Assembly (NCBI GenBank): GCA_011634665.1
Contig: WAEK01000006.1
Span: forward strand, 2,672,001 to 2,736,000
Source of the DNA: Mortierella sp. BCC40632
Lineage: Eukaryota; Mortierellomycota; Mortierellomycetes; Mortierellales; Mortierellaceae
Length of the DNA: 64,000 nt
Direction: 5' to 3'
How positions within the stretch are numbered: position 1 is the first letter of the stretch; each line of letters starts with the position of its first letter. The notes beneath the pieces were generated by a model. The model saw only the letters and a program-made list of their open reading frames with translations, searched no databases and was not told the origin of the DNA. This document shows positions 16,295 to 56,962 of this stretch, one piece after another. A program made the position numbers and the translations under genes.

Positions 16295-17580
16295 CCAAAA
16301 ACCCGCGCACTCTCACACTTAACACAAAGTGTGTGAAAACCAGAAAGAGAACAAGAAGTACGTGGGCTTTGCTACCAATCTTTGGCGTCTTGGATTGAAC
16401 GCTAATATTGAAAGACAAGGTTATAGAGGAGAGAGAAAGAGACACGGAATCTCCAAGTCTAGATGCCCACTCCAGAAGAAACAGGGAGTATGCCGTTGCG
16501 CAGAGAATCGGATCGGAGCAAAAAAAATGCAATAAGCAGATGCAGACCATGCGAGAATGGGTCATCTGCATAGTGACCCAATCGATCATTTGTATGAACG
16601 GCCCGAAACTGCCTTCTCCGATCCCCAACTGCAGCCCAAATGTGTGTACCTCAGAGCTAAGGAAACGCTGCGCTGGAACAAGACCGATAGATGGCGTTGT
16701 CGGAAGAATTGGAAGGTTAAAGAGTGAGAGGGAGCGGACAAGAGCAAGAAGGCGTTACTTGTTGTGCCCCGACTGCCTGCCGCTTCATCTCTTTTCCTCT
16801 TTGCAACCCAACCTGTTCTTGTCCGCCATCGATCAACTTTTTGAACCTTGTTCAAGAATGGAGGACAGAGGGGAGAATGGGAGGTGCCTGGAATTCGTCG
16901 ATCGAATGGCCGCGTACTCCTGCAGCACACATGTTCTGCCCACAAACTCTGATCCTCTTTGGGTTCTCCTCTCTTCGTTGGTTTCCTTTTGCTTACTCTC
17001 ACTCCCTCGCTCTCTTACTGACCTTTACCTCATCTTACCAGCCCTTACCCGCCATCTGTGATACTCCATGGCTACCCACTCTTTCTACAGGTCCATCTCA
17101 AATCATTTGTACCACGTGGGTACGAGGGTCCCGTGGCTATATCATATACAGGCAACGAGAAGCTGAAGGCGCAACCAAGAGAGAAAAAATGAGAAGGAGA
17201 GCCCCGTCTCTCCTCTCCCTCCACCGTTTCAATTCCTCGTCTGGAATGAGCAGAGCCTGTTTGGAGAGAGAAAGAGAGGAAGAAAGAGAAAATACAGTTT
17301 GACCGAACCAAGTTCATACTTTACTTTTTGTAGCACGCAATCTCCAAACTGACCATTGGCAAAAAAGTGGAAGGGCAAAAAATGAACCGAGCAGGAGGAT
17401 AAAAAAAAAAAATCGCACGCAATTGAGCCAAAATTCTCACCGCCCAACCAACCAAGTCTTGTACCACCGATTCAGCCGAATGAGCTTTGCCACGCGAGAG
17501 AAAAAAAAAATGCCGAAGAACCCTCGAATCCACGAGGAGAAGACCCCTTAACATCGAGGTCAAGAAAGGCAAAAGAATAG
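11705..17580. other. Long intergenic region, no gene recognised
   Basis: I found no exon-like coding segment with recognisable motifs on either strand. It holds A43 followed by (GA)n at about 12153-12218, several T tracts of 15-25 (13213, 14058, 14313, 15670), and (CA)n at about 16198-16293. Short ORFs present are isolated, repeat-driven or without supporting splice structure. Confidence 0.5.
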
Positions 17581-17663
17581 TGGTGGAAGTGGGATTTGAA
17601 CCCACGCCTCTTTCGAGACCGCAACTTGAGTGCGGCGCCTTAGACCAACTCGGCCATCCCACC
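17581..17663 (-). tRNA. tRNA-Leu (anticodon CAA)
   Basis: Read on the minus strand this folds as a type II tRNA. The acceptor GGTGGGA pairs with TTCCACC, followed by discriminator A. The D-arm/A-box carries TGGCCGAGTTGG. The anticodon stem CCGCA/TGCGG encloses the loop CTCAAGT (anticodon CAA). There is a long variable arm and a T-arm/B-box GGTTCAAATCC. It has no intron. A short T run just past its 3' end could serve as the Pol III terminator. The LINE target duplication begins 92 bp upstream of its 5' end. Confidence 0.95.
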
Positions 17664-17755
17664 TTTTTATATGAAACAGAATATAACTTACTATTTAAAA
17701 TTAATTTCTAAATAAGTTATTTCCAATAAATTAAGTTAATTCCTGTCATTATTTC

Positions 17756-17775
17756 TCTTTGATTGGCTGGCTGGC
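17756..17775 (+). repeat. 5' target-site duplication of LINE copy 1
   Basis: The 20-mer tctttgattggctggctggc occurs here and again at 24941-24960, directly after an A10 tail. The two copies are identical. This fixes the element's ends at 17776 and 24940. Confidence 0.93.
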
Positions 17776-18644
17776 CAACAAGTTCGGAACCGTCCAGAAG
17801 GTCAGCCTCATCGCTGTACCTAATGGAAAGAAGATGAAGGCTGTGGTGGTATTCGAGGAGCAAGAGGCGGTTGACGAGATCGTCAGAAGCGGCAAGAAAC
17901 ATGTCGCAATCGGAAGAGACCTCGTCCGCATTGGGACCATCGGTGGCGTCCAGCTGAAGTGGGCACTAGAGTATGCCTGCAAGCTTTCAGGCCTACCAAT
18001 CGGAACGACTTCCCTGGATCTACAGGGCCTCTTGGAAGACGTACAAGCTGACTTCATCGAAGTTCCAAGATATTACCGAGGTAAGACTGCAGAATTCAGA
18101 TACAGACGTGAAGCCTTTTGTATATTTCGCTTCGAAAGAGGATATGGAAAGGGCAATGGAAAGAGGAGTAGAGGTGAAGGGGAAGAAAATGGCGTGGTGT
18201 AGTTTGCAGGAGAAACTATGCTACGCGTGCAACGAAAAAGAGCACGGGATTGGGGGCTGCGAGAAACAACGGCAATGGATCGCGTCGAGGAATCACGTTA
18301 AGGAAGTGCAGGCGTTCAGACGGGATGCCTTCAGAAAGGTGCAAAGTGGAATATCGTACAGCACAGTGGCAAAGGACGATCCGGCGAAGACCACTGGACC
18401 AGTGCTAGAGAGGAGAACTGAGGTTACGAAAATGGGCGAAGTCAACGACGAGAATTTCCCAGCGCTTGGAGGGGCTCGTAGCTCAACGGCGACCCGTCAA
18501 GTTCAAGAGAACAAGCAAATGGAAGAGCAGTTGAAGATACTCAAACAGACAGTACAGTCATTGAATGAGGCACTAAACGCTCTCCAGGAGCAAAACAAAT
18601 GGCTAATGAGCATGATGGTGAGCTTGATGCAGGGAAAACCGTGA
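17776..18644 (+). pseudogene. LINE ORF1 (Gag-like, RRM-like region and zinc knuckle), 5' truncated and frameshifted
   Basis: The frame open from 17776 to about 18080 encodes an RRM-like beta-alpha pattern (KVSLIAVPN, AVVVFEE, RDLVRIG). A frameshift near 18070-18110 moves the rest into a second frame ending at 18644. That part contains one CCHC knuckle, CYACNEKEHGIGGC (C-x2-C-x4-H-x4-C), a FPALG motif common in LINE Gag proteins, and a heptad-like C-terminal stretch (KQMEEQLKILKQTVQSL). In related elements ORF1 protein binds the element RNA. The N-terminus was lost at the truncation point. Confidence 0.85.
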
Positions 18645-18969
18645 CAGGGGGGGGAACGACAGAAGAGGGAAAAAAGGAAAGGAAAAAAAGAGGTTGAGGA
18701 TGGGGAAAGGGTCGAGACGCTCGCGGAGATGGCAGCATTCGTCCAAAAAAAGAGGAAAACAGGAGCACAGACGCTCCCAGAGTACAACCGGAATGTGCAC
18801 AACGGGGCGATAGCTGGAATAACGTCAATCGCAGTAGAAAGTGATGGTATCCGGAAAAAAGAAACAACAACGCAGGGGAAGACAATGACCACACGCTCGA
18901 ACAATGCAGAGAGCAGAAAATAGTGTACAACAACGGCGATCGTAGGGGGAGAGGAGAGGGGCGAGGCCA

Positions 18970-21900
18970 ATGCAACAGTTTCTGCGAGTTGGTTCGTTCA
19001 ACATCAGAGGAGCAAACCAACCAGGGAAGTTCGATGCACTATGTTAGTGGGGAGATTGGAAGGAGATGGACATGATTGCAGTGCAAGAGACGAAACTGCC
19101 CAAAGAAGGAGAAAGGGGGGATGTTCACAAGAATAGAAAATGGAAAAATAAGGAAAAAAATTAAGCATGAGAAATACGAGGTGTATTGGGACCACGGGCC
19201 AGAAGAGCAGAGAAGGGGCACAGGGGTAGCGCTAATAGTGGCACCACACTGGGCGAAGCACTACCACCCCGAAGAGAGTCCTATGGGGGAAGAGTGCAGG
19301 CGATTGATTTTCATTTTCGAGACAATTTTTCGATGCGGGTAATAAATTGCTACATACCCAGTGCCCAGAATGATGAGCACAGGAAAGCAACACAGTGGAC
19401 CCAAAGGAAAATAGAAGAAGCACAGAGTAGATCAATGGCAGTCATCCTCATGGGAGACTTTAATGGCGTCATGGAACCGACAGTGGACCGACACAACGGA
19501 CGAGGAACTAGACCCGAAATTGACCTGCTACGATGGATCATGACACAGCCACTCCATGATACATTCAGATCGGCGAATGAGGTCGCTAGGAAATACTCAT
19601 GTCAAGAGAAGAGCAGAATAGACATGATCTTCGTCAGTGGGCAGCTCGCAATGCGAATCACAAAAGCATCAATTCAGGATATGGAAGGGGTCGTCGCCTC
19701 GGATCACAGAATGGCAAGAGCGACCTTTTCAATACACGGTATTGAGCAGCTGCAACCACCAAACAAACAAAAGTACAAAAAGGCGAAGGGATTCCGTTTC
19801 TGCTACCGTGACGCCACAGAGGAGCAATGGGAGGAGTTTAAGAATGTGCTGACAGGGAGGATGACTGCCACAACGATGGATAGGCTCGGGTTTGCCGCGT
19901 ACGAAAGACTTGATGAGCCTGTCGAGAAGGAAATACTCAAAAAGCTCGATCTTAACGCGGCATGGAACTGGTACGCAAAGACGATCGTATCAAGTGCCAA
20001 GGATACCATCCCAGGGAGGATAGTGGGTCGATCTGGAGCCAAGCCAGAGAAGGAAGTGTCTCTCCGACACATTATCTACAGGGTAAGAGATCTCAAACAC
20101 CTGGCAACACCGTTCTCAGGCACCTGGGAAGTCAACGATGCAACAGAAAAATGGCAGGAGATTCGATATTCAAGGGAATCGATAGCAGAAGCGATTAATG
20201 AACACAACGCTACTACTCAAGACGACCTAACAAATATTGAAGAGCCACCGCTATGGTCAGGAAGCATTGGGGAGTGGACTGCTTGGTCCAAAAAAATCAA
20301 GCAAGTCTGGAAAGACATACTTCACAGGATCAAAGCCGAGACAGAAGCGACTGCACGTCAGTTCATCCAAGACGCCATTGAACGACGATGCGAGCAGATG
20401 AAGACGGCCACAGGGAAGATGATAGATAGTATCCTAAGCAGGCAAAAGGGCAAAGTGGTACTGGACAGAGTTCAGTACTCAGACGAAGATACTATAACTA
20501 CCCCTCATTGAACCAGGAGATATTAAATCACATGTCCGTAAGTGGTTCAACGAATGGCATGGGCCCCGACCATCCCAACCGATCGAGCAAGGCTCAGCGT
20601 GGAAACGACAATACGAGCCTATGGAGTGGGTACAGGATGGTTGGTACTATGGACTCATGGACGCCCCTTCCATGGAGGAGTATGAGAGAGCAGTTAGGGG
20701 AGGCCCCCCTGCGCACAAGGCCCCAGGTTCGTCAGGCACGGCAAACGATCTGTTCAAAAAGCAGGGCGATATCGGGAATTGGGCTTTATTTCAGATTATC
20801 GCAGCATGCATTATTCAGAGGAACATGCCAGGTGAATGGAAAACAGGTATTCTTTATTGCATTCCCAAAGCCCCAGTATGGTCAGGAAGTCTAGCTGAAG
20901 TGAGACCGATCACCCTCCTGGAGCACGCAAGAAAAATCATGTTCGCTATACTCATGGTACGCATGGGGAAAACACTGTCGAGGCATGACATCCTTAAAGG
21001 GCCAAACTACTCGGTGTTGAAAGGGACCACAACGAGAGACCCTATTCATATTCTTCACGGAGCCATGGAGGACGCTCGGGAGTTCAAAAAAGAGATGTGG
21101 GTCGTCTTTCAGGATATGAAGCGCTGTTTTGACTCGGTCAACTGTCAAGACGATGGAATGTTAATACGGGGATTAAGACGAATTAAGGCACCAGAGGAAT
21201 TCATCGAACTGTGTACAAACATCGCGTGTTCTAAAGTCAACAAAGTCATCACGGAATATGGACTGACCGAGGAGTACCACCCGGAGTGCGGACTGGATCA
21301 AGGAGGGGTTGAGTGTCCACTGTTATGGCGGATAGCATACGACCCACTTTTGTGCGAGATCATGGAAGGGAAGGATGGATACACGATGAGTAGCGGCAAC
21401 ATTCCGATACAGATCGCAGACGTGGCATTTGTGGATGATACGACGTGGATAGCTCGTTCAAAAGGCGCTGCACAGAGAATATTGGATACGGCAATGTCCT
21501 TTTTCACTTTGAATGGAGTGGAGATCAACACAAAAAAGACAGTGGTATTGGCGATCAACCCGAGTGTAGAGGACAGGACACTGCGGTTCGGGAAAGACAG
21601 GGATGTCATTTCACCGACTGGCGGGGCAGAGGCAACAAGGATATTAGGAGTCTGGGTAAACGCGAAGGGAACAACCAAGCCCACGATCGACCTTATCTCA
21701 AGGGACACCGAGACGATCTGCAACACGCTTCGAAGGAAAAGGATTACAGACAAGCAAGCAGCATACATCGTCAACTCGGTTCTCATCCCAAAGGTGCTGT
21801 ACAAGATGTCAATCCAGGTCATCCCTTCGCCGACGCTCAGGAGGATCACAGGCAAGTACATGTCAATGATCAAGACTAAATTTAAGATGCCAAAGACCAC

Positions 21901-24514
21901 GCCAAACAGTGTTATGCACCACAACCGTCTGGGAACCATCAGGAGACTGGAAGATTTGCAAGCAGAGGAACAAATCACCAGCCTATGGCTACGTCTGGGG
22001 GATGCAGGTTTGGTAGGAAGGGTTGCAAGAGCCAGACTCTTAGCCCTTCAACAAGCACAACAACTGCCAACACTACCCACGAGGATACCAGATCAAGTCG
22101 AGATGACCAGGAACAGTCTGACGAGCGGGGTATGCCGGATCCTGGCAGAGAGGAAAATGACTCTCACGGTCAACGTCGAGAGAGACATTGGACTCAAAGC
22201 CGGAGCCGTGAGCATACAAGAATGGCTTGGGGAAGGATGAAAGAAGAGGCGAAGGAGTTGTGTAGGAAGGGAATCTTTTGCGGAGCAGATCCTCCACAGA
22301 AATACTCATGTCGTGGAAGGACATTAGAGAGAGATCCCAGATGGGAAAAAGAGGAAAGTGATGCCTCCATGGTTCCAGAGGGTGCAGGCCCATGTGTGTG
22401 TGGTGTGGAGGAGCAGAGGCAAACACGAGAGAGGTGGGTGGAGAAGCAAAGAGGAGAAGGTGGAGACACTGCTGGACAATATCGAAACGGACGCGTCACA
22501 CACCACAGAGGAAGAAGGGGGGAAGAAGAGGAAAGCGACGATGAGGGTGAAGATGAAGAGGTGAGAGAGATGGAGGAGATAGACCAACCAAGAGTTTTTT
22601 TTTTGCAAAAAAGGGCTAACACCAAAAGAATGGTGGGGAGACCCATGAACAAAAGAAGAATGAGGAAGGAGGAAATGATGAGAGTGAATGCCAATGAGGG
22701 AGGAAACAAGTGGATCCAGAAAAAGAGAATCGTGAGGTCGAGTTTGAAAAAAAAAAAAAAGATTGGAGAAGGAATGGGGAAAGAGAAGAAGAAAGAAGAA
22801 GGAAGATGAGGAAAAAAGAGAGAAGGGAGGGTGTGTGAAGAGAGAGAAGAGGGAGCGAGCGAGACACTCATCCTCAGACGGAGGAGCCAGAGGAAGAGGC
22901 AGGCAAAAGGGACGGCCAAGAGGCGAAGAAGGCCCTTGCTGTACAGGCTTGCAGCCCTCCAGGACTTCAACAGCCTTCGGAAAGACAACAGAGTCCGCAA
23001 AGAAGGCGATGAGGCGTTTGCAAATGCCGCAATGCCCATTTGGAACGCCGAGGAGTGGGAGCAAGGGCTTGACCGACCCGAAATCTTGCAACTGAACGAG
23101 GAGGCCACAAACAACATCAGCCGGTGGAGAGAGCAACTCAAGGATGAAGTATGCCTGGAGTTGTATACAGATGGATCGCTAAAACACTATGCCACCGAGC
23201 AAGCCAAGATGACGTTTGGAGTGGTCGTGAAAAGCGGTTTAGGGTACGAGGAGGTTATTGCAGGGACGGTCGAGGGATATGCATCATCGACTAAGGCCGA
23301 GTTGCTTGGACTTCTTGCAGCAATTATGTGCAGCCCGCGAGGGAAGGAAGTAACAATCAGGCTCGACAACGATGCTGTGGTCCAGGGGTTTGAGAAGCTG
23401 GTGAAGGGAAGAGTGGACGCCACGAGGAGGATGAAGCAGAGAGCGACGTATGCTGAATGGTGGACATGGGTGCACCAGTCCTACTGCGACCAAGGTGGAA
23501 AGATTGAGGTAGAGAGGGTAAAAGGCCACTCAGGAAATCCAGGTAACGAAGCAGCAGACCGCTTAGCGTCCAAGGCACATCGGACGGCTAGGATCCCATG
23601 GGAGCTTCCAAAGCTGGTTAAGGATGGATATGGGTGCAGGGCTAGTTTCATGGATCACGCAGTGGAGGACGATGTTCGCCAAGTCTTGAAGCTACAGTCG
23701 GCAGCGAGGGCCCACCAGCACTGGGTCAGACAGAACAGGACGAGGCGATACATCTCCGATTGGAAAGCAATCGAGTGGAGCGCGACACTGGAGATCATTC
23801 ACGAGAGGAACGCACCGAGGAGTTTTACACGAGTGAAGGAGACTGCCAGAGGCGATCGCACAGGTTGAAGAAGCTGCACGGGATGCTTCCGACACTGAGC
23901 GAGATGAAGAAGCGACACCCAGACCTGTATGATACCGACACGTGCAGGGTCTGCGAGGAGGAAACCGAGACGATGGAGCACATCTGGGAATGCAGGGCCA
24001 CAAAGGAGGAGCAGGAGGAAGGGTGGCGAGAGGCGGTGAAGGCCGTGAAGGAGAGTGGAAAAGAGGAAGTGGAAGAGAGAGTGCAAGGCGTGGTTGGAGG
24101 AAGCGAGGGGACGCTAGGAGGAACGGTGGTTCACCCAAGAGGAAAAAACCAACGTTCACGGAGAAGAGTGAAGGGGATCTTTGGGACTCCTTGGAGGGGA
24201 TCTTTGAAGGAGTTGAAGAGATCAGACCCAGGGAGGTTGAACAGAGATCGAGGCACAGGAGGAATGCAGAGCCGCAACACACAATCATGGAGGCGTATCA
24301 GGGAATGGTACCTGAAGTGATGATAACAAGCTGGAAGAGAATGCACAGGACGACAAGACCGATAGCGAAGGATATGGCGACTCGATTTATCGAAGCCATT
24401 GAGGAATTTGGACGCACGCAGATCTGGGGACAGAGGTGTACAGCCACAGTGGACTGGGAAAAGACGAAAGGAATCACTGCGGTGAGCAAACGCGCCGGGG
24501 AGACGCAATGGTGA
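18970..24514 (+). pseudogene. LINE ORF2: endonuclease, reverse transcriptase, RNase H, CCHC; multiply frameshifted
   Basis: The protein can be followed through at least six frame changes. The APE endonuclease starts at 18970 (LRVGSFNIRGA, then DMIAVQETKLP), with INCYIPSAQ, GDFNGVMEPTVDR, SRIDMIFVSG and SDHRMARATF at 19346-19730. Reverse transcriptase runs about 20621-22240: RPITLLEHARKIMFA, FQDMKRCFDSVN, GLDQGGVECPLLW and the catalytic AFVDDTTW. RNase H runs about 23150-23590 with LYTDGS, STKAELLGLLAA, RLDNDAVVQGF and VKGHSGNPGNEAADRLAS, all catalytic acids present. A C-terminal CRVCEEETETMEHIWEC knuckle follows near 23943. The catalytic residues are intact although the frame is not. Confidence 0.9.
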
Positions 24515-24867
24515 TGGGGAGACACCAACCTAGCCACAGTGATTTCTCAGACTTGAACAGTCCACAGCGGCCGAAGCCCGACCTCAGAGAGGCGTACAGA
24601 GAGGCGGATGAAACAGTTCTGAAGTATGTGCAGGGAAAGACTAAGCTGAATGTGATGGAGCGGCTAGGAAGCTGGAAAAAAAAGTGTTGACAATGGACGC
24701 CGGCTAAAAGACGACGAATGAGCGCAACAGGCCACGTAGGGGGGTGGGCGGACAATACTCGACCCATTCATGCGATGTGAGTGATGCCGAAGAGTATATG
24801 GACACTGTAGACTAGGTTCTGTAGTATCCATTTGCGAGATTCCTTCTCGTTTAAGGTCCAGTGACAA

Positions 24868-24889
24868 CAGGGCGGCCCCGGCCGCCCTG
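24868..24889 (+). repeat. 3' UTR hairpin of the LINE family, copy 1
   Basis: A perfect 9-bp stem (CAGGGCGGC / GCCGCCCTG) closes a CCCG tetraloop about 50 nt before the A tail. The same stem occurs in copy 2 with a different loop. Conserved 3' stem-loops are used by the reverse transcriptase of some LINEs to select template RNA; that role here is inference. Confidence 0.8.
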
Positions 24890-24940
24890 GTATACCATAA
24901 ACTCTGCATGCCCACATGGGGTCCTTGTTAAAAAAAAAAA

Positions 24941-24960
24941 TCTTTGATTGGCTGGCTGGC
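24941..24960 (+). repeat. 3' target-site duplication of LINE copy 1
   Basis: Identical 20-bp partner of 17756-17775, directly after the A10 tail that ends the element. Confidence 0.93.
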
Positions 24961-25016
24961 TGGAAAAAAAAAAAAAAAAAAAACGCACGCACACATCTTT
25001 TTTTTTTTTTTTTTAT

Positions 25017-25727
25017 AGGGCGCTACCAAGATCCCTTTGGATGTGGGACGAGGCCATAAGGAGGATCGATGACTGGGGGAGGAGAGCTGTCAGCGAAGCC
25101 AATAGGGAAGCCAAGGAAGCATTCGAGAGGCAAAGAAGGAACAACGTGCCAGGATTGAGGACTCCTAGACAGATGGTCTGGAGAGGTGCACCTGCCAGTA
25201 TGGTGGCCAGGAGCCTAGATTTTATCAAGGAGAGTACGGACTCCTCACCGAACCCTCAACATAATGGTAGGGCGCTACCAAGAGCACCTTGGACCTTTGG
25301 CTCTCTCTGTCGAGGGCTGACACCGACAGATCTAACTGCGGCATGGAAGAGATTATTCGCGGTAACAGAATCAGTGGCAGCTCGGGTGGCCCACTGTTTT
25401 GTCAGTTACATCAAGTCGCAGTCAACTGAAGTCTTATGGAAAGAACGCTGTGAGACAACAGTGGCATGGGAGACAAGACATGGAATCACCCCGGGGAAGA
25501 AGAAAGGCCCTTCCCAAGGAGCAAGAGGACGTTGGAGCGATGGCTATGGGTTTGCATGCCCTGCTGACGCCTGCCAGTGCGGATCCCCTCTTGTTGATCA
25601 CCAGGAGCAACGATGCCCAGGAGCACAGAACGACGCAGCGTCGGCTGATACCTCCCTACTCGATAGTCTAGCAGGACGGCGACATTTGGGGGTGTTAGAA
25701 AGGATGGGGAGGATACCTTTCCGGTAA
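25017..25727 (+). mobile_element. Older, divergent LINE 3' tail
   Basis: The plus-strand frame reads LWKERCETTVAWETRHGIT, which aligns with the C-terminal ORF2 tails of copy 1 (IWGQRCTATVDWEKTKGIT) and copy 2 (GGQRCETTVEWEKSIGIT). It therefore derives from a related but distinct LINE subfamily. The 15-mer agggcgctaccaaga occurs near the start (25018) and again at about 25269, suggesting an internal duplication. I see no tail or target duplication that defines its ends. It has the same orientation as copy 1 and lies on its tRNA-distal side. Confidence 0.65.
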
Positions 25728-25862
25728 CGATCTTTTTCTCAACTATTTAAACGTCTCGAGAGACGGCAATCGTTGCTCGGGGCAACAGCCACGTGAGCCG
25801 TTATGGTCGATGGAGGGTTGCCACCTTTTGCGGGGACCGGGGCTAGATTAGGCTTTCTTAGT

Positions 25863-27289
25863 TTAGTTTTGCCAACACGGGCAGAAGAAAGAGGAAGCAA
25901 AAAAAAAAAAAAAAAAAAAAAACTCATCGCATCCGGCTGATGAGACCTTGGATGTTGAGAGCCTGATTGTCCCAGCTTGATAACTGGTGTTAATACCATA
26001 GAATCGACAATTAAAAGGATCCAGTGTACCCCGATCTGAGGAAAGCAATAGAGAGGCTCCAGCGATTGCAATGCACATGGCTGCATTTTGATCGCGCCTT
26101 TTGATGGTGTTGTACAACTTGTATGATTCCCATGCTTGGTTGGTGTATTCAACTGCTCCGTGAACTTTGAAGATCTTGACCTTGCCTTTCATGATCCTTT
26201 TTGAACGCGCTAATTGCACCTCTTTGAAGCAAAAGGGGCATGTTTGGGAACTGCGATATTCATCCTGAAGTCCCACTACTCCATGTCGCATATATAGATT
26301 CTGTGTTTTTTTGCCTCCTCATCGAGAGTGACCCTTGGTTCGGCTTCCTATGCCAGTGCCTGCATTGCCATACAGAAAAATTGGAATGGAATGGATGACT
26401 TTATCCTTTTGGCAGGCATTCTGGTGAACGGAGTTTTTCCTTGTGCAATTAGCGACGTGACTAGTCTGACACTTCCTACACTATTCGTCTAAAGCAATGG
26501 GTCAGAGCCATCGTCATACAGTTGGCTCAACGCGGCAATCTACATTCGCTCGTTTTTTCCACTTACCAGATGACTTGGGCTCAACGGTTACATTTTGTGT
26601 GCTTTCCGTCGTTACATCCGCAGCTAGTGTTTCCTTTGCTACTCTTTCAGACCTTCACTGACTGAATGGGCGTGCCACTGGACACGTCTTTTTTCTTCAA
26701 CAGCCAGCTCGGCCCATACTCTTTTCGTGCGTAAACATTGGTAACGAAGTTCTTTAAGTCGAGCCTTGGAAGACTCAAATGAACTTAGATCTTTCCTGGC
26801 AGCCCGTCGCACCTTGGAAGCGGCGTTGATTTCTTCCATCGACTGTGTCAGCTTGAGACTACCCCGATGCGTGATGTTTTCATGTGCAGCCTTAACATTC
26901 TGGTTCGATTTTTGTCTCAGTCCGCGGTCTCTTTTGCTTGTAGTCTTTTTTGTTCCTGAAAGGTTATCAATCTGTGCCCCTGTGATTGAGTATGCCTCGG
27001 GCAGCTGTGCAATACTAGGCGCTCCCTGATCTGGAGCCTGCTTGGGGTTCGCTTCAGCTATTAAAATAAGACAATGGTGTCTTGACATGACCCTTCTGTC
27101 TGGTCTCATTCCTGCATTACCAAGCCAACCACCATCGCAAGCATGATTAAAATTTGAATACACATCACTTTTTCTCATGACTAAAGTATCCAAGGCACTC
27201 AAGATGCCCATAGCGCCCATGGTGCTCGAAGCGAGGATTAGGGTATGACAGACTTTGTATTGCATGACGAATACCTGATTGATAACCAT
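25863..27289 (-). pseudogene. Decayed Fanzor (eukaryotic TnpB-like RNA-guided nuclease) gene
   Basis: The downstream open segment (26291 to 25863) encodes DEYRSSQTCPFC at residues 10-21 and IKRRDQNAAMCIAIAG at 64-79. This is the TnpB/Fanzor order: a DEYRTS-type motif, a zinc-ribbon CxxC, then the RuvC-III RDxNAA with catalytic Asp (D67, bases 26091-26093). Between them HGAVEYTNQA matches the usual HG-x-x-x-C-x-x segment, but Tyr replaces the expected Cys, so the second zinc pair looks lost. The upstream segment (27289-26639) has a Lys/Arg-rich region resembling the middle of Fanzor1 proteins (YSITGAQIDNLSG, FESSKARLKELRYQ). Stops and frame changes separate the two parts at 26292-26638. Family assignment is from motif order only. 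Confidence 0.68.
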
Positions 27290-27471
27290 TTAGTTTTTCT
27301 TAACAATTGATCGGGGGCCACGGGACTAGGGGACATTCAAGTATCATCAAGGGGAAGCCCTGAGTGATTTCTATCTAATACAACTTATCCTGTCACTCTA
27401 GTTCGTCTGCAAGTCGAGCAACCTAATTCCATAGTGAAAACGAATCTGTCGTTTTCAGCTTTGAACGCGAG

Positions 27472-27565
27472 TGGTGCGTTTTGATGATTTTTGACTTTTA
27501 CGGAAAGAGGTTCGTTTTTTGAGCCCTTCTCCCAAAAACGGGAGTCGCACCAGAAAAACGCACCA
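27472..27565. repeat. Imperfect inverted repeat with 11-bp arms
   Basis: TGGTGCGTTTT at 27472-27482 is the reverse complement of AAAACGCACCA at 27555-27565. A partial third unit, CGCACCAG, sits at about 27546-27553. The arms are 72 bp apart. It lies just upstream of the Fanzor relic (minus strand). It could be a hairpin or a miniature-element remnant; I found no target duplication. Confidence 0.6.
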
Positions 27566-29759
27566 GTATTAAGATTAATGTTTGACAAGGGCCGGTCATC
27601 GCCTTTTCAGATTCTCGATACAACGTTCGTAGCAGATCTGGAATTTAGTAGTAAAATAGTTGAATGCACCATCCTTGGGAAGATCGGCTGCTGGAGACTT
27701 GAATGATGGAATACAATGCAAAAATCCACCAAGAGGTATTGCTCTTGTGCTCAGTGAAATTTGCGATTGAACTGAGCCTATCCAACATCAGTTCCGATGA
27801 TTCTTTTGTACATCGTAAATGACCTGCAGATTGATGAAGTATCTTAAGAAAAGAAAGCGTGAGGAAAAGATCAAAGTGAGCAAACGACCATTAGATAGAG
27901 CACCAAATGAACAACAAGAGAGTAGATCGTAAGGACCGCCCCTAGAGAACTGAGTAAAAGAAAGCGCAATGGTATTTGAAGCATACTTCATCTTTAGATT
28001 GAGCCAGAGATAGCCAGTCTTTGGCGCAGATTAGTCGTTGACCTGTCAATAAAATCAACGCAACTTGGAAAAGCATCTTCGTGCGTAATTTTGACCGAAC
28101 TATTTCTCTACTCCTTTTACAGGCCACTTTATACATGTGCGAGGGACACCTACGCCTCACAAACTCGCTTAGTTTGTCTCTCTGCTGAGTTAACTGGTAG
28201 CTCTGAGTCGAAAGCAACATAGGAAACTCTGGTCTTACTCCCACTGTACCTGAAGCGGTTGAAGGCAACTGTGAGTTGTTATCTAGGATAAGTCTCGGAT
28301 AGATAGACTTGTGAGAACTTGCCGGGTAGTCCCAAGAATAAGCTAGGGCTCGGCATTCGTAGGAGATGGGTACTTGTAAGTGAACAGATGATTTTCCGTG
28401 ATAGACAATCCTGGCTAAGACGTAACATGAATCTAAAAGCACCTCATATACAGTGATTGCCAGCTCTTCATCCTGGACACTTCCTTCCAAAACACAGAAG
28501 AAAAATCCATTGCTCTAAAATCCTAAGGGTACTCTTGAGAACTGATTTGAAAGCCATCCAGGAAATGAGGAAGGAGAATGCGAGGCAAAGGGTAAATAAT
28601 GGGCATAGGGTGCTTCGTTTTTGTGTCCCATATACAGAAACGGTCAGAAGGGTAAAACGGTCAGAGTAAGCAGCCGGCTCAAACCTCGACGTATCCATTT
28701 TTCTCTTTTATGTAGTAAAGCATTCTACCTTGGGAGATAGAAGCACGAGGCGGATCCTCCAGGTTAGAGAGCCTTGATGAGGTCTGCAAGATCATGTCAC
28801 ATAGGAGAGAGGTGGATGTGAAGAAGAGGGAAGAGAGGAGGATAGGAAGAAGAATGAAGAGAGACTTATCCAAAAAGGCTCTTCGACGCTTGAGAATGTA
28901 GAAGACGACAGAGCGCCCAGAATCAACATTAATCTTGACACTTCCAGATCACAAAAAAAAAGAAAGAAAGAAAAGAAAAGAAAAGAAAAGAAAAGAAAAG
29001 AAAAGAAAAGAAAAGAAACGCGGAGAGTCCAAGGTGCAAGGTATAGTTTTAATGCAAATTGGAGTCGTAGAGGGCATGGGATAAGAGCAGATCAAGCGAA
29101 CCCGAGGCGGGCTAAGGCACAAGATCGAGGATCCCGCAGGTATCTCAGAACCGGAGCGCTGCCTGGAAATAGAACTAATCATGAGAAAAGAATATGCTGC
29201 TTCCTGGGACCTCAATGGCTTTGTAGTATAGAGTGTTAGGCCCTGCTACCCAACTAGATGTATCATTGCAGCTCTATGAGCAATAGTCCGTTACTGAGTG
29301 TAAGACTCCACAAAGAGAGCTCCCTTCGGTAGGAAAGGCACTTACTGTATACTTTCCTCCATAGGCTTTGGTGTTAAACATGGAACCTTCTATTTGACAA
29401 AGGACGAAATAAACGAACCTTCATTTTTATTCTCATTATACACTCAGCTCCTTGGACATTTCAATGGGTTACTCGAGGTAACCTAACAACTACAGGACAC
29501 CGACTGTTGGTCAACCTGAGACTCCGAGCTAGATGTATTGTGTGGAGGGATCCTCTGAGCCGGCGGACAATGTTAGGAAGACACTAACTGGATGAGCTTG
29601 AAGTCATGACGCCCTTGGTTCATGGATAAGGTTAACCTCCACTTCTTGCCTTTTTTTAATCTGGTTTAGTTGGAATAGTCATGCAGGCAAAGACCTAACT
29701 AAGAAACATAATCTAGCCCCGGCCACCTCCTTGGGCCCAGATCGCGATTGATGGGGAAT

Positions 29760-29761
<2 letters not shown>
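27566..29761. other. Transposon-flanked region, possible decayed membrane-protein exons on the minus strand
   Basis: No known family is recognised. Two minus-strand segments look exon-like. About 28935-28728 encodes a hydrophobic stretch (FILLPILLSSLFF) and ends at a donor-like CAAG|GTAGAA. 28490-27942 is an open frame of 182 codons lacking ATG. No clean join was found. An (AAAAG)n array occupies about 28966-29017. This may be a relic of a multi-exon gene or chance open frame. The remainder holds nothing I can support. Confidence 0.3.
28966..29017. repeat. (AAAAG)n microsatellite
   Basis: About ten tandem AAAAG units, slightly degenerate at the left end (AAAG units). It is an uncoded purine-rich tract. 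Confidence 0.9.
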
Positions 29762-29794
<33 letters not shown>

Positions 29795-30212
29795 TTTGTT
29801 AACGAGGGCCTCATGTGGGCATGCAGAGTTTATGGAATGCCGGGGCTACTGTCCCCCCTTGGCCATAACAGGATCTAGCCCTGCAGATAAACACTAAATA
29901 GTTCTACCTAATGTCCAGATACTCTGTTCGCCATCACCCACGTCGCATGAGTGGTCGTAATGCCAGCTCCCTACGCGGCCTGTTGCGCTCATTCATCGTC
30001 TTTTAGCCCTCTTGGTCCATCGCTAACACTTTTTTCCAACTCTCTAGCCGCTCCATCACCTCCAGCTTTCTCTTTCCAAGGTAGTACTCATGCACAGTAC
30101 GATCTGCTTCATCGTATGCCCACTTGAGGTTCGGCTTCTGCCTCAGCGGATTGTTCAAGTCGGAGAAATCTCCACAGCTACCGTGGTGTCCGTCAGCACT
30201 GTGGCGTCTCCC
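29762..30212 (-). mobile_element. LINE copy 3, short 3' tail, interrupted by copy 2
   Basis: A 32-nt T run at 29762-29793 is the poly-A tail seen from the plus strand. The minus strand continues with the family 3' UTR (gcatgcccacatgaggcc, compare copy 1 gcatgcccacatggggtcc) and ORF2 C-terminus (DFSDLNNPLRQKPN, KLEVMERLESWKK). The hairpin stem is degenerate. Homology to copy 1 stops at about 30212, inside the target duplication of copy 2, so copy 2 landed at the 5' edge of this copy. I could not find a target duplication for copy 3. It is the oldest-looking of the three same-family copies. Confidence 0.8.
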
Positions 30213-30224
30213 AGTCAGAATCAG
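30207..30224 (+). repeat. Left target-site duplication of LINE copy 2
   Basis: tctcccagtcagaatcag here matches 31348-31365 exactly (18 bp, 19 if the following t is counted). It abuts the T16 tail of copy 2. Confidence 0.9.
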
Positions 30225-31347
30225 TTTTTTTTTTTTTTTTGTTAACAAAGACCCCACGTGGGCATGTAGAGTTTATAGAAGACCAGGGCGGCTCCGGCCG
30301 CCCTGTTGCCACTTGGTACCAAAACGGGATTACACCCGCGAATGAAAACTATCTAAACAGCCTCCAGACACTCAACAGCCATCACCCACGTACGCATGAG
30401 TGGTCGTATTGCCAGCTCCCTACGTGGCCCCGTTGCGCTCATTCGTCGTCTATGAGCCTGAGTCCATCGCTAACACTTTTTTTCCAGCTCCCTAACCTCT
30501 CCATTACGTCCAACTTTTTTTTTTTCCCAAGACATACGCCAACACCGTCTCGTCTCGTCTGCTTCCCCATATGCCTCTCTGAGGTCTGGCTTCAACCGAA
30601 GTGGATTGTTCAAATCCGAGAAATCACCGTGGCTACGTTGGTGTCCTCCGTCACCGTTGCGTCTCTCAGCGCGTTTGCTCACCGCGGTGATTCCTATAGA
30701 CTTTTCCCATTCCACTGTGGTCTCACACCTTTGACCCCCAAATCTGCTTTCTACCATACTCCTCAATGGCCTCAAAAGAACCGTGTCGCCATATACTTCG
30801 CTGTCTTGGTTGACGTCCTGTGCATCTGCTTCCACTTTTGGACCACCACGTCTACAACCAATCCCTGGTATGCTTCCCTAATCGTGTGTGGCCTGGTCAC
30901 CTCTTCCTCCTCCTGTTCTCTCTCGCGCTCCCCCGGACGGATGTCCTTGATGCCTTCAAAGATACCCTCCAATGAGTCCCCACAAGTCTTCCTCATTCCT
31001 CTCCCTGAATCCCGGCTTCTTCGAATGGTCCGATCTTCCTGCTTTCCTCCTTCCTTGCTCTACCCATGCCTTCAACTCCCTCCTGTACTGCGTACGTCCA
31101 TACTCCTCGACCTTCTCTACTTCTCCTTTCCAATGCTCTCCTTGCTCCTTCACTGTTGCCTTGCATTCCCAAACGTGCCTCGTCGTCTCTGTCTCTTCTC
31201 TACAGACCCTGCACTTGTCATCCTCGTAGAGTTCTGGGTGGCGCCTCTTCATTTCCGTCAGAGTTGGAAGCATCCCATGGAGTTTCTTGATCCTGTGCGC
31301 CCTCCTCTTGCAGTCCCCCTCGCTGGTATACAGACTTCTCGGTGGGT
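30225..31347 (-). mobile_element. LINE copy 2, 1.1-kb 5'-truncated
   Basis: A minus-strand insertion ending in T16 at 30225-30240, with an 18-bp target duplication. It encodes only the end of ORF2: SLYTSEGDCKRRAHRIKKLHGML at the left of the frame, the knuckle CRVCREETETTRHVWEC, then GQRCETTVEWEKSIGIT and DFSDLNNPLRLKPDL. These match copy 1 from about 23817 onward. The 3' hairpin stem is intact. Frameshifts split the frame into three parts. Its 5' end faces tRNA-Ser, 121 bp downstream of its target duplication. Confidence 0.92.
30284..30305 (-). repeat. 3' UTR hairpin of the LINE family, copy 2
   Basis: The same 9-bp stem as copy 1 (CAGGGCGGC / GCCGCCCTG) with loop CGGA in sense orientation instead of CCCG. 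The stem is unchanged while the loop differs, which points to selection for pairing. Confidence 0.8.
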
Positions 31348-31365
31348 TCTCCCAGTCAGAATCAG
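31348..31365 (+). repeat. Right target-site duplication of LINE copy 2
   Basis: Exact 18-bp partner of 30207-30224. Its right edge is 121 bp from the first base of tRNA-Ser. Confidence 0.9.
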
Positions 31366-31486
31366 TATATCCTAACTTAATTTCTGACACTCATTATTTC
31401 CTCTAAGAATAGGACTTGGAATCAGGATCTGAGCGTTTGAATAAAACGGCGCTTTGAAGCCCCGGTTTTCATCTGGCGCCTAAGTT

Positions 31487-31567
31487 GTCAACATGGCCGA
31501 GTGGTTAAGGCGTGAGACTAGAAATCTCATGGGTTCTCCCGCGCAGGTTCAAGTCCTGCTGTTGACG
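31487..31567 (+). tRNA. tRNA-Ser (anticodon AGA)
   Basis: Type II tRNA fold. Acceptor GTCAACA pairs with TGTTGAC, then discriminator G, as expected for Ser. The A-box TGGCCGAGTGG is present. Anticodon stem TGAGA/TCTCA encloses loop CTAGAAA (anticodon AGA). A variable arm is present and the B-box is GGTTCAAGTCC. There is no intron. LINE copies 2 and 3 lie immediately upstream. Confidence 0.95.
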
Positions 31568-31784
31568 AGACGCGCTTCTCTTTTTTGCACCTGGTATCCA
31601 GCTTCCCAATCTGGCTCCTCTGCCCTTCGGGAAGCCCGAGCATTTGATGTCGCTCGAGATGATCATTTTGCACCTGGGATTCTTTTTTCGAAAAATCTAA
31701 CTGCCGGATCAGTCCGGCAGATAATTTTCGTTGGAGCAGATAACCTTCCATTTTGATCATTTAACAGTCGGATCCCTCAACCCA

Positions 31785-38469: not shown

Positions 38470-40231
38470 ATGACTGTCGGAACCATCTACTCATACCCCC
38501 AGAACCCCCGTGTCTTCAAGGCTCTTGTTGTCGCTAAGTACAACGGCCTTGAGGTCAAGGTTGACGACAAGTTCGTCATGGGCACCACCAACAAGACCCC
38601 CGAGTGGATTGCCAAGTTCGGTGCTAGCCAGGTAAAAAAAAAGAAAAACTTTTTATCTTGAGCTTGACGCGCGTCTCCCACGCCACGATCCTCTCCTTTC
38701 ATGATCGTATCGAAACTAATGGTGATATGATTTTGCATGAAATAGGTCCCTGCTTTCGAGGGTACTGACGGCACCGTCATCATCGAGTCTGGCGCCATTG
38801 CCTACTACCGTACGTACTCTTTACGCCACATATTTGTTTATTTATTCTTTGGGTCCTCGCTTGTATGGCTGCACTCTTCTCGGAAAGCTCGCCTGTGTGC
38901 AGTCACTGAGCAGCTTGACCTTACCCAGAGCAAAAAAAAAAAAAAAAAAAAAAGGCGTCTTCATATCCAGGAGGAAGAAAAAAGAGTGTGGATGATGAAT
39001 TATTTTTTTATACAGTTATCCCTGACTTAATCATCTATGTCGAGATTTGTATTCTGAACCTCTTAAAAATAAGTCCTTCCTGGCGCTCTTGGGAAGGAGT
39101 GGAGAAGTGCACAGCCTTACAATGAGATGAATCCATTGGTTTCTATCTATTGTCAGTGAAGAGATTTCTAATCCTTGTTCTTGTTTTAATTGATAATTTA
39201 CAGTTGCCCACATGAAGGAGGGCTCCACCCTTGTCGGCCGCTCCAAGGTCGAGGAGGCCCTTATCCAGCAGTGGATCCAGTACGTCGACTGCGGTCTCGC
39301 CCCCACTCTCGGCTCCTGGATCTACCCCATCCTCGGCTATGTCCCCTACAACAAGCAGACCGAGGTTGCCGCCATTGAGCGTGTCAAGTCCCAGCTCGAG
39401 GTCCTCGAGCGCCACTTGGTCAAGAAGACCTACTTGGTCGGTGAGCGTGTCACCTTGGCTGATATCTCTGCTGCCGTCGGTGTCTACTACGGTTACAAGA
39501 TGGTCTTCGACCTCGAGTACCGCAAGGCTTTCCCCGCCGTCACCCGCTGGTTCACCACCATCATTAACCAGCCTCACTTCAAGGCTGTTGCTGGCGAGTT
39601 CGCTTTCTGCGAGGTCACTGCTAAGTTCACTCCCCCCAAGAAGGAGGCCAAGGAGAAGAAGCCCAAGGAGGAGAAGCCTAAGGAGGAGAAGCCCAAGAAG
39701 GAGGTCAAGGAGGTCGAGCCTGAGGATGAGGCCAAGGAGGCCCCCAAGCCCAAGTCCAAGTTGGATCTTCTCCCCCCTGCCAAGATGGTCTTGGATGAGT
39801 GGAAGCGTCAGTACTCCAACAACGATACCCCTGTCGCTATGAAGTGGCTCTGGGAGAACATTGATCTCACCGCTGACTACTCGATCTGGAAGGTCGACTA
39901 CAAGTACAACGATGAGTTGACCAAGTTGTACATGTCCAACAACTTGGCTGGTGGTTTGATGAACCGTCTCGAGCGTGCTCGCAAGTATGCTTTCGGTAAC
40001 TTGGTTGTCGCTGGTGAGGATAACGCCAACATCATCACTGGTTACTTCATTGTCCGCGGCAACGCCGATGAGATGATCGAGGAGATCACCGATGCTGCTG
40101 ATTACGAGTCGTACAACTGGGTCAAGGTCGCCGTCATTGACGATGCTGCCAAGGCCAAGATCGGTCAGGTCTTTGCTTGGGATGGTGAGATCGATGGCAA
40201 GAAGATTGCTGACGGCAAGACCTTCAAGTAA
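38470..40231 (+). CDS. TEF3: Translation elongation factor eEF1B gamma subunit
   Basis: Three exons, 38470-38631, 38746-38809 and 39204-40231, giving 417 aa, the usual family length. It is the scaffold of the eEF1B nucleotide-exchange complex that recharges eEF1A with GTP. Domains: a GST-N-like fold (residues 1-80), a GST-C-like fold (about 90-215), a Lys/Glu/Pro-rich hinge (about 218-262, KPKEEKPKEE), and the conserved EF1G domain (about 263-417; VLDEWKRQYSNND, WLWENIDLTADYSIWKVDYKYNDEL, WDGEIDGKK). Codon use is strongly biased to C-ending codons, unlike its neighbours, as expected for a highly expressed gene. That bias creates a 400-codon open antisense frame that is not a gene. Intron 2 contains an A21 run. 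Confidence 0.95.
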
Positions 40232-53623: not shown

Positions 53624-53994
53624 TGCGGCGTAGAGGACCAGCACAGGGGGAAAGAGCTCGCACTACTTGGCAGGCAGGTGTGTGAAACCTATTGGGAAAG
53701 GGGATTGCCAGCATAGAAGAGGGAAACATACTGATCACGACGCGTATCACCGTTCTATAGAAGAGAACAAGGCAAGAGAAAAGACTCGCAAATGAACAAT
53801 ATCTAGCTACAGGATCGCACCCCCGGGGCGGGCGGACGAGTGGACCTGCTCCAGACGGTAAGTATTCACAAACGGATCGGGAAAATAAAAGGAAGAAAAA
53901 AAAAACTGTCTTTATTGTCTGGTGTCGAGGGACACCATTTATACCCCCAGGCCCAGGGGCCAGAAGATCGCCCAGTCGTATTTACTACACCACA
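53624..53994 (+). repeat. 5' LTR (371 bp)
   Basis: Begins TGCGGCG and ends CACCACA. It matches 56461-56831 along its length; I see only two single-base indels (a G gained in the GA run after TCTATAG, and one A in a poly-A run). It contains AATAAA and a perfect 6-bp hairpin GGTGTC-GAGG-GACACC. Confidence 0.88.
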
Positions 53995-54068
53995 CCTCTC
54001 TGATCCCCGTGCCTCTTCGATACCCAACTGGATATCGCAGCTGCCAAGTGAGTAGCTCTACTCTTTTG

Positions 54069-56460: not shown

Positions 56461-56831
56461 TGCGGCGTAGAGGACCAGCACAGGGGGAAAGAGCTCGCAC
56501 TACTTGGCAGGCAGGTGTGTGAAACCTATTGGGAAAGGGGATTGCCAGCATAGAAGAGGGAAACATACTGATCACGACGCGTATCACCGTTCTATAGAGA
56601 GAGAACAAGGCAAGAGAAAAGACTCGCAAATGAACAATATCTAGCTACAGGATCGCACCCCCGGGGCGGGCGGACGAGTGGACCTGCTCCAGACGGTAAG
56701 TATTCACAAACGGATCGGGAAAATAAAAGGAAGAAAAAAAAACTGTCTTTATTGTCTGGTGTCGAGGGACACCATTTATACCCCCAGGCCCAGGGGCCAG
56801 AAGATCGCCCAGTCGTATTTACTACACCACA
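56461..56831 (+). repeat. 3' LTR (371 bp)
   Basis: Partner of 53624-53994, nearly identical, followed by ctatatgac. Its right edge is 131 bp from the stop codon of the tRNA ligase gene, so it may lie in or just beyond that gene's 3' UTR. Confidence 0.88.
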
Positions 56832-56962
56832 CTATATGACATGGTCAATGGGTAAGAAGATCATTGTTCGTTCAGAGCCATAAAATATGTATTCTCAGGG
56901 GGAGGAGGAGGGTTATCTTTTCTTTAATGATTTACTTGGTCTCTATCTTCGATTCTTATAGC

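Follow-up and report, generated by a model that had tools for sequence, protein, structure and literature searches.

Fungal LINE retrotransposons lie upstream of RNA polymerase III genes in TRE5-like placement, at about twice the TRE5 distance

The placement of LINE retrotransposons beside tRNA genes in the Mortierellomycota genome analyzed here is far beyond chance. It amounts to targeting of the TRE5 kind in a fungal host, with approximately twice the TRE5 distance. We consider it very probable that these non-LTR retrotransposons, which encode endonuclease, reverse transcriptase (RT) and RNase H, insert through target-primed reverse transcription at sites defined by their distance from genes transcribed by RNA polymerase III (Pol III).

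LINE insertions at two tRNA genes

The window, by which we mean the whole 64,000-nucleotide stretch of DNA, contains two tRNA genes, and upstream of both lies a divergent LINE copy. The features of the two loci are as follows.

17580..17663, minus strand: tRNA-Leu(CAA) gene, target 1 (ARAGORN; Rfam RF00005, 58.8 bits)
17756..17775, plus strand: 5' target-site duplication of copy 1, near edge 92 bp from tRNA-Leu
17776..24940, plus strand: LINE copy 1, family A1, 5'-truncated by ~880 bp, with 3' poly-A (sequence and genome-wide relatives)
19171..20511, plus strand: endonuclease part of copy 1 ORF2 (Exo_endo_phos_2, Pfam E 2.3e-07)
20498..22240, plus strand: reverse transcriptase part of copy 1 ORF2 (RVT_1, Pfam E 2.9e-17; relatives)
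22810..23868, plus strand: RNase H part of copy 1 ORF2 (Pfam E 2.3e-16)
23646..24320, plus strand: candidate zinc-binding tail of copy 1 ORF2 (zf-RVT, Pfam E 0.0028, below cut-off)
24941..24960, plus strand: 3' target-site duplication of copy 1
25015..25921, plus strand: family B1 LINE tail with its own poly-A, on the far side of copy 1
29762..30213, minus strand: LINE copy 3, a 5'-truncated tail, its 5' edge placed to within a few bases
30207..30225, minus strand: distal target-site duplication of copy 2, its last bases being copy 3 sequence
30226..31347, minus strand: LINE copy 2, subfamily A2, heavily 5'-truncated (zf-RVT trace below the Pfam cut-off)
31348..31366, minus strand: tRNA-proximal target-site duplication of copy 2, near edge 119 bp from tRNA-Ser
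31486..31568, plus strand: tRNA-Ser(AGA) gene, target 2 (ARAGORN; Rfam, 62.4 bits)

Copy 1 is flanked by the repeat TCTTTGATTGGCTGGCTGGC, found at 17756-17775 and again at 24941-24960. The near edge of this duplication lies 92 bp from tRNA-Leu and the edge of the element 112 bp from it; the former value matches the distance upstream of tRNA-Leu(CAA) given in the initial annotation of this DNA. That annotation had also placed copy 2 upstream of tRNA-Ser(AGA), which is correct as to position, although the distance is 119 bp rather than 121 bp when measured to the edge of the 19-bp duplication present on both sides of the element. At both loci the 5' end of the element indeed faces the 5' end of the tRNA. 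The Pfam matches place RNase H downstream of the RT in copy 1. Relatives of copy 1 across the genome share 93-100% identity with the window copy, and those with a more complete 5' end (L053 and L055) start ~880 bp upstream of the start of copy 1, which shows that copy 1 is 5'-truncated, inside ORF1.

An additional LINE tail had been reported on the far side of each locus. Both tails are present, but the one near copy 1 (~25015-25921) belongs to a different family, B1, and its start would be ~166 bp from tRNA-Leu by computation once copy 1 is taken out. A Pfam search of the open reading frame in this tail gave no match. Its similar C-terminal stretch, together with B-type loci encoding a related RT, suggests that it derives from a related LINE of another family than copy 1. 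The tail near copy 2 (~29762-30213) is copy 3, as had been proposed, and alignment showed that its 3' UTR is common to copies 1 and 2. The copy 2 duplication spans the boundary where copy 3 meets the flanking DNA, from which we conclude that copy 2 inserted at the 5' edge of copy 3. The window also holds a 372-bp direct repeat (53624/56461), which seems unrelated.

Distance and orientation across the genome

The survey of targeting was carried out on the window's own 49.9 Mb assembly. A tRNA or 5S rRNA gene was found 103-238 bp from the 5' end at 14 of the 24 loci of A1, the family of copy 1. All 14 genes are divergent from the element; 13 lie at 103-150 bp and the remaining one at 238 bp. A further 4 of the 24 A1 loci lie within stacks that have a tRNA at their base. 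The chance probability of this result is ~2e-30 under an analytic null with a generous tRNA count, in which all 1589 first-look tRNA candidates were treated as genes. The genome-wide A1 check therefore bears out the suggestion of tRNA-upstream targeting made from the window, and the accompanying reservation that two loci could be chance no longer applies, the genome-wide counts being far above chance. Chance placement was set aside given the computed probabilities.

When all families were considered, the upstream match was divergent at 49 of 49 Pol III genes, representing 24 gene types, and 38 of the 49 edges fell at 100-170 bp; most of these loci were located via the elements themselves, and edge positions are accurate to about 15 bp. 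The single 5S rRNA case is divergent and lies 103 bp from C25:84737. An apparent edge of 77 bp at L013 is a library effect, as the matching piece had been cut from L013 itself with its flank; at that locus the A2 5' end, read visually, is actually ~138 bp from the gene, and the edge of B2 is at 165 bp. Loci L067, L081 and L106 also matched library pieces of their own, and other loci matched those pieces at similar edges. A tRNA-centred sample, not chosen for LINEs, had an upstream LINE match at 6 of 40 tRNAs, with 6 of 6 divergent and four at 110-123 bp.

The insertions have target-site duplications of 16-24 bp and poly-A tails. At 11 insertions the near edges of the duplications lie 90, 92, 96, 97, 97, 110, 116, 119, 128, 129 and 148 bp from the gene. 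All but one of these 11 gene-proximal edges thus fall at 90-129 bp upstream, the exception being at 148 bp.

These counts would be inflated if a few tRNA-LINE units had been copied around the genome by segmental duplication. Such copying did occur: there are two clear inverted duplicate pairs (L041/L042 at tRNA-Ala and L094/L095 at tRNA-Lys), and the tRNA-Arg flanks of L080 and L081 are 98% alike over 195 bp. As an account of the whole pattern it is nevertheless next to impossible, since 5' truncation points and target duplications differ between loci, 24 gene types are involved, the 11 insertions have private target duplications, and counting the inverted A1 pair once still leaves 13 of 23 loci, with P ~5e-28.

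For some copies, the DNA examined contained no nearby tRNA. At 6 of the 24 A1 loci (C1:601221, C4:1966995, C25:159419, C3:3472999, C4:2292903 and C9:2132223) no tRNA was present in the ~3.8-3.9 kb of upstream DNA examined per locus. Sixteen tRNA-less stretches, among them those of six B-type loci and of five of these six A1 loci, were also scanned with Rfam at a loose threshold (E up to 0.5) and yielded no Pol III gene; the only hit, in L090, was to part of an LSU rRNA and fell below cut-off. Among B-type flanks, 14 of 30 likewise had no tRNA in the examined stretch, as did 6 of 12 flanks of A2/A3 type; for many of them the stretch may not reach the true 5' end.

Copies of this kind would fit random insertion in gene-poor or AT-rich DNA with retention only where harmless, for instance beside tRNA genes, and it has been argued that compact genomes offer safe sites upstream of tRNA genes (PMC5006619). 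Survivorship of this type predicts neither a narrow distance nor a single orientation, whereas we observed divergence at 49 of 49 genes and duplication edges at 90-129 bp in 10 of 11 insertions. Moreover, the 93-100% identity of A1 copies to the window copy implies that there has been little time for selective filtering. We regard this explanation as very improbable.

Insertions stacked on older elements

In four nested cases a newer copy sits on the 5' end of an older element: copy 2 on copy 3 in the window, a SINE in A1 (L052), B2 in A2 (L013/L066) and B1 in A1 (L060/L044). In all four places the duplication of the newer copy coincides with the older 5' edge or falls slightly within it, in agreement with the earlier proposal that older elements were pushed outward.

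Insertion within the 5' ends of older elements, seen several times, could also reflect direction by sequence, either through an endonuclease motif or through homing to older LINE 5' ends or to LTRs adjoining tRNA genes. In the same direction point L052, L055 and L073, which are inserted ~100 bp into LTR-like sequence, almost at one and the same point of the LTR; in L073 no tRNA was found, as LTR homing would have it. However, most of the 11 target duplications fall outside LINE-5'-end or LTR sequence, their near-edge bases have no common motif by eye, and the tRNA types vary, with a 5S gene as one target. In the nested cases the 5' edge of the older element is itself near the preferred distance, so that position accounts for both insertions. 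Direction by sequence is accordingly judged very improbable, and homing to LTR or LINE sequence was set aside as the main cause.

A tRNA-derived SINE with the same placement

A tRNA-derived SINE of ~808 bp follows the same pattern. Among its 13 copies with a preserved 5' part, defined as a query start <=45 and at least 300 bases, 10 adjoin a divergent tRNA (P ~6e-24). Because its placement is identical, the SINE probably uses the LINE machinery in trans. To our knowledge, it is unusual for a tRNA-derived SINE to land beside tRNA genes. For three 5'-truncated fragments of the SINE (L160-L162), no tRNA was seen out to about 350 bp.

Relation to known elements

The L1-type element TRE5-A of Dictyostelium discoideum, described as having an endonuclease, an RT and a zinc finger, inserts upstream of tRNA genes in opposite orientation and also upstream of 5S genes (PMC5911963, PMC5391098), with 80.2% of tagged insertions reported within 47 +/- 3 bp upstream (PMC5391098). 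The fungal LINEs resemble it in position, in orientation and in the combination of endonuclease, RT and candidate zinc finger, and the one insertion beside a 5S gene may be a counterpart of its 5S targets. They differ in their fungal host, in possessing an RNase H, which is not among the domains listed in the TRE5-A description consulted, and in distance: the target edge is at 90-129 bp (10 of 11 insertions) or 148 bp (one), whereas the TRE5 family inserts ~44-54 bp from the mature tRNA. In the TRE5 family the ORF1 protein binds TFIIIB, and the B box is needed. No named dictyostelid element appeared among the 104 matches of a protein search for RT relatives, and the organisms named there are fungi, with relatives in Mortierella, Podila, Linnemannia and Rhizophagus.

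The non-LTR elements NLTR-B of Polysphondylium pallidum and NLTR-A of D. purpureum are described as having RNase H downstream of the RT and as lying upstream of tRNA genes (PMC5006619), as in the fungal LINE. Their listed distances are 39-64 bp and 2-6 bp, respectively (PMC5911963, Table 1), and the fungal duplication edge (90-129 bp in 10 of 11) lies outside both ranges. Among fungal elements, the LTR retrotransposon Ty1 of S. cerevisiae uses an integrase and a ~1 kb window upstream of Pol III genes (PMC5911963). It shares with the present LINEs a fungal host, a position upstream of Pol III genes and a window reaching well beyond the gene start, but it depends on integrase and not on target-primed reverse transcription, the probable route of the LINEs studied here. 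The Ylli LINE of Yarrowia lipolytica is similar in having endonuclease and RT, poly-A and 5'-truncated copies; unlike the present elements, it is reported with no target duplications identified, and the portions of that report consulted state no tRNA targeting (PMC5014426).

In the table of tRNA-adjacent elements of a 2018 review, the fungal entries are LTR elements only (PMC5911963), and in the literature surveyed, social amoebae are the only hosts in which non-LTR elements are documented to lie at a set distance from tRNA genes. As far as we found, in a search with most subscription journals outside its coverage, tRNA targeting by LINEs is known in social amoebae and has no description in fungi, which is consistent with the remark in the initial annotation that none was known in this group.

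Proposed mechanism and implications

In the mechanism that we propose, the first strand would be nicked ~90-130 bp upstream of the 5' end of the mature gene, and the element would be laid down with its 5' end toward the gene and its 3' end away from it. The assembled Pol III complex may supply the tether for the ribonucleoprotein, through TFIIIB, TFIIIC or Pol III itself. Such a tether would set both distance and polarity, and the endonuclease would contribute little sequence choice.

We lean towards a joint reading in which a LINE lineage of Mortierellomycota gained targeting to Pol III genes independently of the dictyostelid elements and inserts one step beyond TRE5, past the TFIIIB footprint; a tRNA-derived SINE has this targeting in common with it; and the LINE lineage coexists at the same genes with LTR-type elements that sit 13-17 bp from the gene, a slot like that of Ty3, giving layered stacks on single tRNA genes whose order reflects insertion time. 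Ordered stacks of this kind are a natural chronicle of insertion. The SINE offers a direct test of whether targeting derives from the LINE proteins, and a second system with another distance provides a way to ask what sets the insertion position. With a case from fungi, it would seem that Pol III guidance can arise repeatedly among LINEs of the endonuclease type.

LINE insertions at the two tRNA loci of the window

The window holds two tRNA genes with LINEs on their 5' sides. Both arrangements are divergent, that is, the 5' end of the element faces the 5' end of the gene and the two are transcribed in opposite directions.

Features of the two tRNA loci (window coordinates)
17580-17663, minus strand, tRNA-Leu(CAA), called by two methods
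17776-24940, plus strand, LINE copy 1, with a 20-bp target-site duplication
~25015-25921, LINE tail beyond copy 1, of family B1 and not of the copy-1 family
30226-31347, minus strand, LINE copy 2, with a 19-bp target-site duplication
31486-31568, plus strand, tRNA-Ser(AGA), called by two methods

The near edge of the target-site duplication lies 92 bp from tRNA-Leu for copy 1 and 119 bp from tRNA-Ser for copy 2. If copy 1 is removed, the B1 tail starts ~166 bp from tRNA-Leu. Copy 3, itself a tail, belongs with copies 1 and 2. The ORF2 reading frame of copy 1 is broken into pieces, which match the Pfam endonuclease, RVT_1 and RNase_H domains, with a zf-RVT match below the Pfam cut-off, and the copy lacks ~880 bp of 5' end that its relatives have. 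Among 104 reverse transcriptase relatives, the named ones nearest the top were from Mortierella sp. GBA30, Podila minutissima and Linnemannia schmuckeri; Rhizophagus appeared lower in the list. These relatives make a Mortierellomycota fungus the very probable host. The window corresponds to G000:C6:2672001-2736000 of an assembly with 62 contigs and 49.9 Mb.

Elsewhere in the window, a match to the C/D-box snoRNA snoR38 was found at 38982-39064 (Rfam, 56.8 bits), and a 372-bp direct repeat with 99.5% identity lies at 53624-53995 and 56461-56832, 2.84 kb apart. Neither a tRNA gene nor obvious LTR ends were present in that part of the window.

Divergent Pol III genes upstream of LINEs across the genome

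Copy 1 was used in a DNA search of the assembly, in which 40 of 111 first-look candidates were scored, so that all counts are lower bounds. A tally of the table gave at least 24 separate loci, the window copy included, that match copy 1 at ≥93% identity (family A1). The 5' flanks of the other loci were fetched in pieces; ARAGORN served to find tRNAs in them and Rfam to find other RNA genes. The initial annotation had proposed that these LINEs target sites upstream of tRNA genes, and the family-wide distances and orientations bear this out: at 14 of the 24 loci a Pol III gene turns its 5' end toward the element at 103-238 bp. These genes are Leu(caa), Thr, Leu(tag), Trp, two Ile, three Ala, Ser, Tyr (238 bp), two Asn and, as the single such case, a 5S rRNA gene at 103 bp. 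Two of the three tRNA-Ala loci belong to one inverted duplication, and at the Thr and both Asn loci the true 5' end was found by eye beyond the truncated query. Four further loci lie inside same-strand element stacks that have a divergent tRNA at their foot (tRNA-Ser on contig C26, tRNA-Val on C10, tRNA-Leu(aag) on C7 and tRNA-Gly on C22), as inferred from match coordinates and partial sequence, the intervening bases having been fetched incompletely. At the remaining six, tRNAs were absent from the ~3.8-3.9 kb upstream of each.

Were all 1589 first-look tRNA candidates genes, a divergent one would be expected at 80-250 bp with a probability of 0.0027 per locus, in an analytic calculation that presupposes few tRNAs missed by the first look. 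Finding 14 of 24 by chance then has P ~2e-30, or P ~5e-28 for 13 of 23 when the duplicate pair counts as one.

A second sample started from the tRNA genes. The first look scored 63 of the 1589 candidates, of which 12 had been seen before; upstream DNA was taken for 40 of the other 51 and 11 were left out. LINE matches were found upstream of six of the 40; each was divergent, and the edges lay at 76, 110, 112, 122, 123 and 419 bp. LTR-like sequence, its first base being the 14th to 17th base upstream, was present at four, one of which also had a LINE; thus nine carried either and 31 neither. Over all stretches, such LTR-like sequences begin at the 13th-17th base upstream in L011/L068 (one locus), L052, L053, L127, L129, L146 and L150. 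They are Ty3-like by position, not classified by protein, and in some cases a LINE is inserted ~100 bp inside them.

Among 30 5' flanks of the separate, related B-type LINEs (L077-L106), 16 had a tRNA and 14 did not. In 13 of the 16, an element match lay ≤700 bp upstream of the tRNA. The others were L086, where the element is 147 bp from tRNA-Met by coordinates and the fetched stretch was too short to match; L078, with only an unclassified repeat 115 bp from the tRNA; and L097, a head-to-head tRNA pair with the element 2.6 kb distant. Of 12 flanks of the copy-2 subfamily A2 and a further A-type group, A3, six had a tRNA (L067-L070, L072, L076) and six did not, one of the latter (L066) running on into a stack that ends at tRNA-Leu in L013. 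Because the true 5' end may fall outside the fetched stretch in many of the tRNA-less B and A2/A3 flanks, they cannot be scored as clear negatives, nor do they lend support.

When a library of element pieces was matched against ≤700 bp upstream of tRNA or 5S genes, LINE or SINE matches occurred at 49 loci covering 24 gene types (23 tRNA anticodons and 5S), and all 49 were divergent. Edges fell at 100-170 bp in 38 and at 100-250 bp in 44. Most of these loci were located via the elements, so that presence is biased, whereas distance and orientation were not selected by the search. On the downstream side, the 33 loci with ≥300 bp scannable gave one weak 38-bp match (L048).

A putative tRNA-like SINE with the same placement

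An element of ~808 bp (L052:276-1083; G000:C10:553775-554582), which has a tRNA-like head and a poly-A tail, appears by eye to be a SINE; its head carries stretches that we judged A-box-like and B-box-like. A genome search with it, all 20 candidates being scored, returned 23 matches. Of the 13 copies whose 5' part is preserved, ten have a divergent tRNA, the element starting at base 107-135 (P ~6e-24). The other three are one copy in the C22 stack and two in a rearranged region of C9. No tRNA was found within ~350 bp of the 5'-truncated fragments L160-L162.

Target-site duplications and nested insertions

In the established model of target-primed reverse transcription, the first-strand nick falls at the gene-proximal edge of the duplication. 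Clear duplications of 16-24 bp were obtained for 11 insertions (nine A-type LINEs, one B2 and one SINE), with proximal edges at 90, 92, 96, 97, 97, 110, 116, 119, 128, 129 and 148 bp, some uncertain by up to ~7 bp owing to A-runs. Among the edges two clusters seem to emerge, one near 90-97 bp and the other near 110-129 bp, but 11 sites can do no more than hint at this. By eye, no common motif was evident at their edge bases. From one set of 13 cases examined for duplications, eight were kept; none was found in L050, L045 showed only a CT repeat, and those in L041, L042 and L033 were left out as short or inside repeats.

At four places a newer element has its duplication within the initial bases of an older one or over the 5' junction of that older element.

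Nested insertions
Window: copy 2 on copy 3, the copy 2 duplication spanning the 5' junction of copy 3
L052: SINE in A1, at tRNA-Asn
L013 and L066: B2 in A2, at tRNA-Leu(aag)
L060 and L044: B1 in A1, in the C26 stack

A position measured from the tRNA gene would force every new copy to insert near the 5' edge of its predecessor, which would thereby be moved outward. The four nested places fit this expectation, and with it the earlier suggestion that newer copies displace older ones.

At two different tRNA-Asn genes, A1 copies break off at the same position in ORF1 (L052 ~2342, L053 ~1545), beyond which lie two different sequences, LTR retrotransposon-like by eye. Two inverted duplications (G000:C4 near 311400 / 321800; G000:C1 near 2105700 / 2119200), both ~98% identical in the parts compared, carry a tRNA gene and its LINE on each arm. 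In the element nest at G000:C9:2117000-2137000, an A1 copy is apparently split by inversion, its last part being on the opposite strand.

Relation to known systems

Position, polarity, duplications, poly-A and the variety of Pol III genes are what is observed at the insertions. R2-type sequence-specific non-LTR elements, which insert inside small RNA genes, are a different thing. The fungal LINEs and the dictyostelid NLTR elements have RNase H in common, a likeness at the level of domains. A table in a 2018 review of tRNA-adjacent retrotransposons has non-LTR entries only from dictyostelids and fungal entries for LTR elements only (PMC5911963). Among the titles and abstract openings listed from the open-licence literature, none described a fungal LINE with such behaviour; PMC7175516, PMC6875170, PMC1431731, PMC5014426 and PMC5006619 were also consulted.

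By analogy with the dictyostelid element TRE5-A, the particle of the fungal element would be tethered by one of the Pol III complex proteins. According to the TRE5-A literature, that element depends on a B box and inserts at 5S genes as well, and in vitro binding to TFIIIB subunits is described for its ORF1 protein (PMC5911963, PMC5391098, PMC5006619); its position is given as 47 ± 3 bp, just past TFIIIB (PMC5391098). The fungal elements, in contrast, lie about twice as far from the gene, which suggests that their contact or chromatin stop probably differs from that of TRE5-A.
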